Source: Candidatus Bathyarchaeota archaeon (GTDB taxonomy: Archaea > Thermoproteota > Bathyarchaeia > TCS64). From it: a DNA stretch of 57,462 bases. Positions within the stretch are counted from its first letter, which is position 1. Each line of letters begins with the position of its first letter. Below are positions 2-6,986 of the stretch, one piece after another. The stretch covers positions 1 through 57,462 of the forward strand of contig JAFGHP010000018.1 in assembly GCA_016930055.1 (NCBI GenBank). The letters run 5' to 3'. The notes below the pieces were generated by a model that saw only the letters and a program-made list of their open reading frames with translations, did not search any database and was not told where the DNA came from. A program made the position numbers and the translations under genes.

Positions 2-745
2 AATCAAAAATGGGTTGAAAAAAGGAAAGCTTACGCAGTTGATGCATATACATTATTACTAAAAATGAATAATCAAACATGGGATCCACCAAAATTTACG
101 GAAATAAGAAAACTACCTTTTTTACCAAAAGAGTCCGAAATTGATGCTTTAATCGCTGGAAGTGGATATAAAGTATCAACATATCTTCAATTACTAAAAG
201 AAACAGCAATGAGAGCTGGAGAAGCACAAAAATTAACCTGGAATGATATCGACTTTGAAACATCAACTATAAGAGTAACTCCAGAAAAAGGAAGCAATCC
301 AAGAATATTCAAGATATCAAATAAATTAATGGGAATGCTACTTGAAGTAAAGAGAAAAAATACAACCACAGATCCTAATCGAGTATTCGCTAAATCGGTA
401 CGTTCAATAAGAAGAATATTCGAGGAAACAAGAAAGAAACAAGCGATAAAACTACAGAATCCAAGACTATTGCAGATACACTTTCATACATTAAGACATT
501 GGAAAGCAACAATGTTGTATCATGAAATAAAAGATCCTCTTCGAGTTCAAGAGTTTCTTGGACATACAACATTTCAGCATACTACAAAATACATTCAACT
601 AGAAAGAGCTCTATTCGATGAATCAAAAGAAAATTACATCTGCAAAACTGCAAAAACCGTTGAAGAAGCAATCCCTCTACTAGAAGTAGGCTTTGAGTAT
701 GTTCAAGAAATCAACGGGCTCCACCTTTACAGAAAAAGAGCCTAA
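2..745 (+). CDS. Tyrosine recombinase / phage-type integrase, C-terminal catalytic part (5' truncated by window edge)
   Basis: ORF 65..745 contains Arg (MRAGEAQKLTW), HTLRH and GHTTFQHTTKYIQ motifs of tyrosine recombinases. The frame is open upstream to base 2 without a stop, so the true start lies outside the window. Confidence 0.85.
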   Translation, partial: NQKWVEKRKAYAVDAYTLLLKMNNQTWDPPKFTEIRKLPFLPKESEIDALIAGSGYKVSTYLQLLKETAMRAGEAQKLTWNDIDFETSTIRVTPEKGSNPRIFKISNKLMGMLLEVKRKNTTTDPNRVFAKSVRSIRRIFEETRKKQAIKLQNPRLLQIHFHTLRHWKATMLYHEIKDPLRVQEFLGHTTFQHTTKYIQLERALFDESKENYICKTAKTVEEAIPLLEVGFEYVQEINGLHLYRKRA

Positions 746-768
746 GGTATGCTAGGTTCAATAAAAAG

Positions 769-843
769 CGGGCCCGGTGGGATTTGAACCCACGACCCCA
801 GACTTAGGAGGCCTGTGCTCTATCCGTGCTGAGCTACGAGCCC
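769..843 (-). tRNA. tRNA-Arg (anticodon CCT)
   Basis: Reverse complement GGGCTCGTAGCTCAGCACGGATAGAGCACAGGCCTCCTAAGTCTGGGGTCGTGGGTTCAAATCCCACCGGGCCCG folds as a cloverleaf. Acceptor GGGCTCG/CGGGCCC, anticodon stem CAGGC/GTCTG, loop CTCCTAA, T arm GTGGG-TTCAAAT-CCCAC. No intron, CCA not encoded. Confidence 0.95.
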
Positions 844-893
844 CGGACCCACCTACGCTAATCATCTCCTAGATTTAAAATTAGCTAGGGATT

Positions 894-2714
894 TTATCGG
901 GCTCCTCCTCCACCGCCTCCGAAGCCACCTCCACCCCCGAATCCTCCACCAGAAGAGCCAAATCCTCCTCCACGGAACCCTCTGGAGCTTGACCTTGTGA
1001 TTGGTCGATTTGCTGTAATGAATGGATAGAAATATAATCTCATTACTGGTGCTATTGGAGCAATTTCTATTGGTACGTTTAGTTGCCTCATTGCTTCGGA
1101 TACTTTATCTCCGACTCCCAGAGCTGTACCATATACTAGCCAATCACCCCACATAGAGATGTCTTCAGGAGGATATTTTCTAAGTTGGACTAAATCTGAA
1201 AGATGTCGTTTAAAGGAATCCCATTGGAGTATTTCTTTGAAAATATTTGGTTTAAGTCTTCCAAAAAGTGTCTGTGGTGCCGTATAGGCAACAATACCTT
1301 GTATTATTATAACAACCCCCATTACTATTGAGGTTAAAATTGTCCTTGATAATAATGGTGCAAAACTAACAAAGAGTATTGAGATTAATAAAATTAGTCC
1401 ACCAATAATTAAGATAGGGATTGTGTTTTTTCTACCATTAACAGTATATTTTTCTCCTTCACGTTTATTTACTCTTGTTCTAAGATCTAAAAGTTCTGAT
1501 TGTACATAATATGCGGTCTGATTTGCTTTACCTGAAACAATGTCTTTAGCTAAAACATTTAATTTTTCAGTATCTAGAACTCCTTCAGGAGACGATTTTT
1601 TTATGAAGTTTATTACCCTTTTTTCATAATCATCATTAACATTTGAGTCAAGCACTGAAATTTTTATTCCCTCTTCTTTCTGTTCGATTAATATCTTTTT
1701 CCTTAGATGAAGATCAAGTAATGTTGCATAAAATCCGTCTTCATCAAAATCTAGTGCTTCACTTTTAAAAGCTAAATTAACGAACCATGGTTTTCGTTCT
1801 TTATTGGGTATTGCTGTAAGATAAGTTGGAACGATTACATCATCTTCTTTCCCAAATTTCAGATATAATAAAATAATTAGTATGGGAATAAAGATGACAA
1901 CGCCTTTAGTTAACCAATTTAATCCTATAGAAATATTATATTGCAATTGATACATATTGTTTGCTTGTATAGTTTTTGATTCTACATCTTGTACTAGTGA
2001 TTCTACACCTTCAATATTACTTTGATTCTTAATCATAAGTAACTCAATTTCAATAAGCTCGTCTTTACTTGAACTGCCTGTAATAATTATGTTATTAAAA
2101 TTTTTTGTAATAGTATAGTATGGAGGATGAATATAAACATCCGAAATATATCCAGAATCTTCTAAACGAATTATGACATTTTTATATGAAATATGTTCGC
2201 TAGCCAACATTAAATTAAGATGCATAACTTCACCATCAACTTCTAATGGAGGATAAATTTGTGTAAAGTAAGTTATAGAATATGTCCCAGGTGAAAAATA
2301 GTATGGGTTATAACATCCTACTTCATTATTATAAGCTAAACGATCGATTATTGGCCTATATATAGAATTGGTACCATCATATAGAATTTGAACATAAGAG
2401 TTAGAGTCTTTAATATAAGCAATCGTATTAGAAGGGTTAATTATTTGTAAAGGTAGGACATGTGGAGTGCTTATTGGATTTAATGAAACTGGGGCAGCCC
2501 ACCCTCTATAAATCATTCTATAATCATAATTACTGAAAGTATAAACAAATGTCTCCTTAAGAGTTCCATTCGAATAAAAAACTGCTGAATAATTATCAAT
2601 AGTTACTCCATTATCTTCATGAGAAGTTTTTAAAAGATCACTAACAAATATACCTCCGATTCCAATAATTAAAGCTATAAAAAAAACGAGGGCTAATTGC
2701 CTCGTCTCATTCAA
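894..2714 (-). CDS. DUF2207-like predicted membrane protein with Gly-rich C-terminal tail
   Basis: N-terminal TM, extracellular beta-rich region, central TMs, RGGGFGSSGGGFGGGGGFGGGGGGAR tail; 4-nt overlap with a LemA gene. Confidence 0.75.
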   Translation of the reverse strand: MNETRQLALVFFIALIIGIGGIFVSDLLKTSHEDNGVTIDNYSAVFYSNGTLKETFVYTFSNYDYRMIYRGWAAPVSLNPISTPHVLPLQIINPSNTIAYIKDSNSYVQILYDGTNSIYRPIIDRLAYNNEVGCYNPYYFSPGTYSITYFTQIYPPLEVDGEVMHLNLMLASEHISYKNVIIRLEDSGYISDVYIHPPYYTITKNFNNIIITGSSSKDELIEIELLMIKNQSNIEGVESLVQDVESKTIQANNMYQLQYNISIGLNWLTKGVVIFIPILIILLYLKFGKEDDVIVPTYLTAIPNKERKPWFVNLAFKSEALDFDEDGFYATLLDLHLRKKILIEQKEEGIKISVLDSNVNDDYEKRVINFIKKSSPEGVLDTEKLNVLAKDIVSGKANQTAYYVQSELLDLRTRVNKREGEKYTVNGRKNTIPILIIGGLILLISILFVSFAPLLSRTILTSIVMGVVIIIQGIVAYTAPQTLFGRLKPNIFKEILQWDSFKRHLSDLVQLRKYPPEDISMWGDWLVYGTALGVGDKVSEAMRQLNVPIEIAPIAPVMRLYFYPFITANRPITRSSSRGFRGGGFGSSGGGFGGGGGFGGGGGGAR

Positions 2715-3283
2715 CTTGGTCCAATCCCCTTTATTTCAGGTGCTTTTTCAAGACCTCCTTCAAAACGAAGGTAATCCATTTTTTTCATATTAATAGTTAC
2801 TGCTATAAAATTTGTTGGAATGGTATCAATCATTGTATTAAGTTCTTGTACCACATTATTGTATGTATATCTTTGACGAGCAATTTCATCTTCAACACTA
2901 ATAATTGCATCCATTAGTTTATTTACAGTAGTAGATGCTTTCAAATCGGGATAAGCCTCAGCAACAGCTCTAATTGAACCGAAAAGACTTCGTGACTCTG
3001 ACTCGATCTTTTCTAAATCACTGGGACCTGCTGTTAATATTTTTGACCTTAATTCAGCAACTTTTTCAAATACATCGCGTTCAAACTGAGTGTAACCTTT
3101 TACTGCTCCTAGAAGTTGCTCTATCATGTCTAATCTTTTTTTCATAGCAACACGAATCTGCCCTAATTCAGCATCAGAAGCATTTCTAAATTTATGTAAT
3201 CGATTATATCCTAAAATATAAACAATAATTATTACTAAAAATAAAACACCTAAACCTGCTAAAAAATATGTTGATATATCCAT
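2711..3283 (-). CDS. lemA: LemA family protein
   Basis: N-terminal TM then coiled-coil; YNRLHKFRNASDAELGQIRVAMKKRLDMIEQLL and AEAYPDLKAS are LemA hallmarks. Confidence 0.9.
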   Translation of the reverse strand: MDISTYFLAGLGVLFLVIIIVYILGYNRLHKFRNASDAELGQIRVAMKKRLDMIEQLLGAVKGYTQFERDVFEKVAELRSKILTAGPSDLEKIESESRSLFGSIRAVAEAYPDLKASTTVNKLMDAIISVEDEIARQRYTYNNVVQELNTMIDTIPTNFIAVTINMKKMDYLRFEGGLEKAPEIKGIGPS

Positions 3284-5888: not shown

Positions 5889-6986
5889 TCATCTCCAAAC
5901 TCTATGAAAAAGTTTTACCCAATTTTCACCAAGAATTTTTTTGATTTCATTATCACTATATCCTCTGGCAACTAAACCTTTAGTAAAGTTTGGCATATTT
6001 TCAAGCCAACCATATCCCCAACTTTTATCCATAGGAGTAAAATAAGTTACATCAATTTTTGTAGGGTTTTTCCAAATATAACATCCTCTAGTTATTGAGT
6101 TAGGAAACTCTAGATCAGATCCAAACCCTACATGATCAATACCAACAACATTAATTAAAACGTCAAGTTGATCTAGTAAATCATCGGTTATTGTGCTTTT
6201 ACCTGCTTTTTTAGCGAAAAAGGGAGTTACACCAATTACACCACCCTTTTCAGCACACATCTTTAATATATCATCTGGTTTTCCTCTCTGTTTACTATAC
6301 TTAACAAAATCTCCCCAAAGATTAGTGCTTTTATTAGCCCATTCAGCATAACCACCTGGTTGCTCTGGTGCAGATTTTCTTGGAATTATGTGAGTAAAAC
6401 TTACTGGGTCTTTAGAAAGTTCTATTGCATCCCAACAAGTTTGATCACCTGTATGACTTAAATCAATTAAAATTCCAAGTTTATTCATCTCTTTAACTAA
6501 ATTTTCACCAAATATACTTAAACCAGAATCTTTTCTTTCACGGCATCCTCCACCTGCATCATTTTGCCAATTATAGGTTAGTTGCATTACTCTTAATCCA
6601 TAATCATAAGCAATTTTTAAAAAATCAAGACTTGATTCAATAAATGCACTATCTTGAGGCCCATAAATAATCCCGTGTTTTCGTTGTTTTTTTGCATTTA
6701 TAATATCTTCAGATTTTTTAATAATTAATACTTGGTCCTTGAATTTTTCTACCCAATGAGTATAATTAATAAGTTGTTTTAAAGCATCATTAAAGTTTTT
6801 TTGCATACATACCGTGATATTTGTAGCAGTAAGTCCACCTTTAAGCACATCATCTAACCACATGTTTTCTGCAATATAATCAATAACTGCAACAACACTA
6901 CTATCAATAACTATACTTTCATTATGAAGAGTAATAGCATGATCTAACTCTTCTTTATTTAAAGACAAATAACTTCGTGAACCCAT
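5889..6986 (-). CDS. M19 (renal dipeptidase-like) family protein
   Basis: GLRVMQLTYNWQN, GLSIFGENLVKEMNKLGILIDLSH, VGFGSDLE. The track ORF extends to 7043, but its first 19 residues (MIFTFIINIFLNLILFIFT) read like translated AT-rich promoter; Met20 (6986) fits better. Confidence 0.8.
   Translation of the reverse strand: MGSRSYLSLNKEELDHAITLHNESIVIDSSVVAVIDYIAENMWLDDVLKGGLTATNITVCMQKNFNDALKQLINYTHWVEKFKDQVLIIKKSEDIINAKKQRKHGIIYGPQDSAFIESSLDFLKIAYDYGLRVMQLTYNWQNDAGGGCRERKDSGLSIFGENLVKEMNKLGILIDLSHTGDQTCWDAIELSKDPVSFTHIIPRKSAPEQPGGYAEWANKSTNLWGDFVKYSKQRGKPDDILKMCAEKGGVIGVTPFFAKKAGKSTITDDLLDQLDVLINVVGIDHVGFGSDLEFPNSITRGCYIWKNPTKIDVTYFTPMDKSWGYGWLENMPNFTKGLVARGYSDNEIKKILGENWVKLFHRVWR

Follow-up and report, generated by a model that had tools for sequence, protein, structure and literature searches.

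Thaumarchaeal genomes harbor cryptic integrated elements, among them small ones composed of an integrase and a winged helix-turn-helix (wHTH) gene and one with a gene for a rolling-circle Rep (Krupovic et al. 2019, PMC6563490). NitUzo-E2 is an integrase-wHTH element of 2.6 kb, and the Rep of NitAQ6f-E2 is SNJ1-like (PMC6563490). Classical archaeal integrases (pNOB8-type, non-suicidal) have their att site outside the gene and target the 3′ end of a tRNA gene, which is rebuilt upon integration (reviewed in PMC8371274). In plasmids of the Rep_1 type, CTTGATA is the conserved nick site of the dso (PMC10378824), and the pC194-type origin sequence is TCTTGATAATAAGG (PMC7072734). A limited literature search yielded no described element of such kind from Bathyarchaeia.

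The window analyzed here is an entire contig (C16) of 57,462 bp from an archaeal genome (G000) of 1.79 Mb in 111 contigs. Its left edge carries, on the plus strand (positions 2 to 745, 247 aa), the catalytic and C-terminal part of a tyrosine recombinase (integrase) with its N-terminus beyond the contig end. A preliminary description had reported an integrase reading frame open at the left edge and, beside it, the 3′ end of a complete tRNA-Arg(CCT) on the opposite strand. Both are present; the integrase C-terminus and the tRNA 3′ end are convergent, with a spacer of 22 nt (746 to 767) between the stop codon and the tRNA. The integrase frame matched Pfam Phage_integrase with 83.5 bits (E value 1.9e-23), and an alignment with XerA (PDB 5hxy) showed a complete catalytic set: R (MRAGEA), K (PEKG), HxxR (HTLRH), H (LGH), and Y (TKYIQ). 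Because the window spans the whole contig and the homologue in the congeneric genome G004 continues upstream, by roughly 150 residues before the first residue in the window and including a zinc-ribbon-like N-terminus, the apparent truncation is a cut made by the assembly. The C-terminal extension of the integrase ends in RKRA or RKKA in the two copies seen.

The tRNA-Arg(CCT) gene (768 to 843, minus strand) is the integration target in our reading and is intact or reconstituted, with a cloverleaf fold and an intact acceptor stem. To its right lie chromosomal genes on the same strand, one for a DUF2207-domain membrane protein (894 to 2714), which adjoins tRNA-Arg(CCT) also in the congeners G004, G001, and G003, and one for a LemA family protein (2711 to 3283). 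The spacer, read on the minus strand, contains TTAT(T/C)GAACCTAGC, which is common to the window, G004, and a decayed copy in G003. The same genome also encodes a tRNA-Arg(TCT) with a 32-nt intron (C73:3705-3813, corresponding to L003 1440-1548), which is missed if introns are disallowed.

We considered whether the integrase gene might be that of a resident chromosomal XerA-type resolvase located beside a tRNA gene by accident. It is the sole Pfam Phage_integrase match in G000, a 94%-complete genome, and among the named NCBIfam models XerA comes closest. However, its score against the XerA equivalog model NF040815 was 79.7 bits versus a cut-off of 220, which no protein of the 94%-complete G000 genome reached. 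The zinc-ribbon-like N-terminus in G004, the patchy distribution and frequent decay of relatives, their convergent position to many different tRNAs, and the att repeat described below also speak against a resolvase. This explanation, which the preliminary description had raised as a possible objection, is therefore very improbable. Among 27 family members, only G001 passed the XerA cut-off.

A search of the genome for the other att site returned, besides real tRNA genes, one isolated match at C93:1247-1282, where ARAGORN detected no tRNA. The identity between the window (C16:765-792) and C93:1247-1274 extends over 28 bp, TGGGTTCAAATCCCACCGGGCCCGCTTT, and covers the final 25 nt of the tRNA and 3 nt downstream; the C93 copy lacks the 5′ half of the tRNA. 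Of the 23-mer GGTTCAAATCCCACCGGGCCCGC within this sequence, the genome contains just two exact copies, one in tRNA-Arg(CCT) and one at C93:1249-1271, whereas the reversed 23-mer used as a control had zero matches. The tRNA 3′ repeat sought as an att site was thus found at the probable far boundary, isolated and in the correct orientation, with the two copies on separate contigs. As the integrase-proximal att core (765 to 792, minus strand) starts at 765 and the integrase stop codon ends at 745, att lies entirely past the integrase coding sequence. By this layout, the integrase is of the classical, non-suicidal type. An integrase of the SSV type, in which the att site lies within the gene and the gene is split on integration, was ruled out, as att lies past the stop codon.

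To the left of the att copy on C93 (att′), two minus-strand frames of 84 and 264 aa are found, and to its right genes for a SAM hydroxide adenosyltransferase and a THUMP-domain methyltransferase. The element side of att′ carries a gene for a rolling-circle Rep-like protein, and the genes on the other side appear to be chromosomal. Followed along the tRNA from its 5′ to its 3′ end, the arrangement reads DUF2207 - tRNA-Arg - [int ... rep] - att′ - SAM hydrolase, as insertion at the 3′ end of this tRNA would produce. About 2 kb of the element is assembled; the middle is absent from the G000 assembly.

Further evidence came from the congeners, a comparison that had already been proposed. In G004, the same arrangement as in the window is found on C51, with the C-terminal part of the integrase (3 to 341), tRNA-Arg(CCT) (364 to 439, minus strand), and DUF2207 (490 to 2310, minus strand). 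A second contig of G004, C180 (3,380 bp), encodes the N-terminal part of the integrase, including the zinc-ribbon-like N-terminus, together with a winged-helix and a PLD-domain protein. It also has a rep gene with 74% DNA identity to C93:236-1022. The presence of the integrase N-part and rep on one contig means that the two genes are physically linked in one element. In G003 (C11), a decayed C-terminal integrase remnant stands alone after tRNA-Arg(CCT), and in G001 (C299), the DUF2207-tRNA-Arg(CCT) locus has no integrase at the tRNA. There, a different, Mtd-like frame (assigned by eye) follows the tRNA and the downstream gene order differs, so that the exact joined site is not seen. The dN/dS values between G000 and G004 were 0.04 to 0.05 for the integrase, 0.29 for Rep, and 0.15 for DUF2207 as a flanking chromosomal gene. 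The lower value of the integrase compared to the flank indicates that the integrase was kept functional.

The integrase reading of G004 is interrupted near codon 112 (window numbering) by a sequence that is present at four other places of this genome. This short dispersed repeat lies at C180:1-121 (L054) and C73:6466-6575 and on C24, C18, and C198; no transposase frame was found in the copies that were read.

Because C16 stops at its left edge, the far end of the element is out of reach of a leftward extension as proposed in the preliminary description. The tie between C16 and C93 is given by the att repeat and the gene linkage in G004 and not by one continuous sequence. C93 might therefore represent the scar of a separate integration, or come from another strain or species binned together with G000, in which case the two ends would be parts of different copies. 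Throughout the genus, this tRNA has an identical 3′ end, so any element using tRNA-Arg(CCT) would leave the same repeat. In addition, G000 has further integrase remnants, and a search of five congeners did not recover the genes for SAM hydrolase and THUMP methyltransferase that adjoin att′. The latter counts against our reading, as C93 could be misbinned or lineage-specific. These points are opposed by the homology between the Rep at att′ and the one physically linked to the integrase in G004, by the single isolated copy of the tRNA-Arg(CCT) end in the genome, and by a similar GC content (32.5% for C16, 29.5 to 32.3% for C93). We regard separate origins of the two contigs as unlikely and infer that C16 and C93 carry the two ends of one copy.

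A tblastn comparison of the C93 Rep with the Rep of the 846-bp Thermotoga plasmid pRKU1 gave an E value of 2e-17 with 38% identity over 118 aa, and the G004 Rep matched PHROG 3419 (rolling-circle initiation) with an E value of 9.5e-5. No Pfam Rep family matched the Reps at E ≤ 1, and the assignment is accordingly based on plasmid records and PHROGs rather than on Pfam. In the alignment, the TLTSS motif, the histidine motif, and the conserved tyrosine region are kept. The archaeal proteins have a single histidine (VIHL, VIHM, VLHI, or VLHL) versus VHMHI in pRKU1, which counts against our reading. As aligned, they fall outside the HUH class in its strict sense, with two histidines and a catalytic tyrosine, while the homology to the pRKU1 Rep stands. 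A pC194-type nick sequence, CTTGATAATAA, is located at C93:870-860 on the minus strand and is the same on G004:C180. The 5′ coding part of rep contains ACTTCACTTGATAATAA on both C93 and C180, and pRKU1 has TTCACTTGATAGTAA in the same place; the nick-like CTTGATA is thus present in pRKU1 as well. Because of the Rep homology and the CTTGATA nick sequence, there is good reason to assume that the G000 element replicates by rolling circle. In a class-wide search, relatives of Rep were detected in only 10 of 257 genomes.

Just upstream of rep (C93, about 930 to 985, L005) there are two GC-rich hairpins, the second of which adjoins a Shine-Dalgarno-like sequence. A hairpin-like sequence with different letters is found at the same place upstream of rep in G004 and, less clearly, in G014. 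These hairpins are possible origin or translation-control structures.

Taken together, the window edge is almost certainly part of an integrated element. The full account that we favor, to which we assign a probability of roughly 0.8, is that of a small integrative rolling-circle plasmid, i.e., a cryptic integrated element of plasmid nature with C93 as its other end. Positions 1 to 767 would then form the integrase-bearing end of this plasmid in a Bathyarchaeia archaeon. In the circular form, a copy of the tRNA-Arg(CCT) 3′ end would lie just past the 3′ end of the integrase gene, and the integrase would recombine this site with the chromosomal tRNA gene. An intact tRNA would be rebuilt on the integrase side, in the window, and the displaced tRNA 3′ end would stay at the far side, at C93:1247-1274, beyond the gene for the rolling-circle Rep. 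With att located beyond the integrase gene, integration leaves this gene intact, and excision should remain possible. In the excised element, Rep would start replication by nicking CTTGATA within the 5′ part of its own gene. We infer that the element excises and replicates.

A virus or an integrative element had originally been proposed to the left of the window. The element is borne out by the att repeat and the linkage in G004; a small plasmid-type element is more likely than a virus. An integrase and a replication gene, and no virion or conjugation genes, are found on the C16 end, the C93 end, and G004:C180, with the middle of the G000 element absent. Structural or transfer genes could be located in this missing middle if the element at tRNA-Arg(CCT) were larger, a provirus or a conjugative element that shares the Rep-bearing end. 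Such an element would be in line with the Bathyarchaeia proviruses with integrases on record (PMC10848311) and with the difference between the G000 and G004 elements. The left end of C93 (1 to 123) encodes a Zn-finger-like frame in the position of the PLD gene of G004, a finding that counts against our reading and means that the two elements differ inside. On the other hand, integrase and Rep of G004 lie within 3.4 kb with the winged-helix and PLD-domain proteins alone between them, and no viral hallmark gene was seen on the assembled pieces. Moreover, single-sequence queries of IMG/VR with Rep and with the integrase returned no relatives, and Rep had no matches in phage records. A larger provirus or conjugative element is thus quite improbable, and a small plasmid remains our preferred explanation. 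An estimate of about 1.9 kb for the missing length, projected from G004, was dropped, as the gene at the left end of C93 differs from that of G004.

Relatives of the integrase were present in 33 of 61 related genomes, and many of them are broken. Among the relatives with both the gene C-terminus and a tRNA present, the usual layout is convergent, with the C-terminus 24 to 55 nt from the tRNA 3′ end. The neighboring tRNAs include tRNA-Pro, -Asn, -Leu/-Ser, -Glu, -Gln, and others; in a few relatives, the tRNA is on the same strand or none is detectable. Since recombinases of one family stand beside many different tRNAs and are mostly convergent to them, the arrangement is not due to chance. Exact copies of tRNA 3′ ends of at least 14 bp were not found in the flanks examined near related integrases of other genomes. 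This counts against our reading, and the att pair is therefore documented for G000 only.

G000 itself contains further traces of related integrases. A decayed C-terminal remnant at C17:1428-1586 (L098) is convergent to tRNA-Ile(GAT) (1619 to 1694, minus strand) and marks an earlier integration in this genome. More broken remnants are located at C10:34935-35253 (L097) and at C55:5229-5398 and 6785-6901 (L099), beside which the sequence read contained no detectable tRNA gene. At C60:3124-3159 (L096), an isolated sequence resembling a tRNA 3′ end, GGGTTCAAATCCCAATGGGTCCGCTTTTTACTGAAC, shows a similarity that continues beyond the tRNA end into the integrase-side spacer. No tRNA gene of the G000 genome matches it, and it is possibly an old att scar.

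The window edge thus represents a well-supported and fairly ordinary integrated mobile element. As a tentative proposal, whose chances we put at somewhat below even, it would belong to a hitherto undescribed family of Bathyarchaeia plasmids that integrate, replicate by rolling circle, and are very small (about 4 kb). These would pair a tyrosine integrase with zinc ribbons, which switches between tRNA genes, with a pRKU1-related single-histidine Rep and an origin within rep, and would have integrated repeatedly throughout the class and left decayed scars. Elements of such size readily escape notice in genomes from uncultured archaea, since assemblies are interrupted within them and standard plasmid or virus models capture neither gene well. 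For a group of Bathyarchaeia elements, actual sequences of integrase, att, and Rep are now available. If these elements excise and replicate, they would be natural starting points for vectors in Bathyarchaeia, a class without genetics.

In comparison with known systems, the element shares with the classical pNOB8-type integrases the att site outside the integrase gene and the targeting and rebuilding of a tRNA 3′ end. Unlike these, its integrase forms its own sequence group, with N-terminal zinc ribbons and the RKRA/RKKA extension at the C-terminus. With pRKU1 it shares a homologous Rep and a nick-like CTTGATA located in the 5′ part of the Rep gene. However, pRKU1 is a free bacterial plasmid with rep alone, to which the archaeal element adds an integrase, and the pRKU1 Rep has an HMH motif, whereas the archaeal Reps have one histidine. 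The thaumarchaeal cryptic integrated elements likewise carry a terminal tyrosine integrase and insert into the 3′ part of a tRNA gene, and they have direct repeats of similar length, a small size, and replication and wHTH genes with no obvious cargo. The differences are the host, here Bathyarchaeia, the assembly of just the two ends in the genome of the window, and a Rep resembling that of Thermotoga pRKU1 rather than the SNJ1-like Rep of NitAQ6f-E2. As far as it is readable, the Bathyarchaeia element operates in the manner of these thaumarchaeal elements and appears to fit the definition of a cryptic integrated element.
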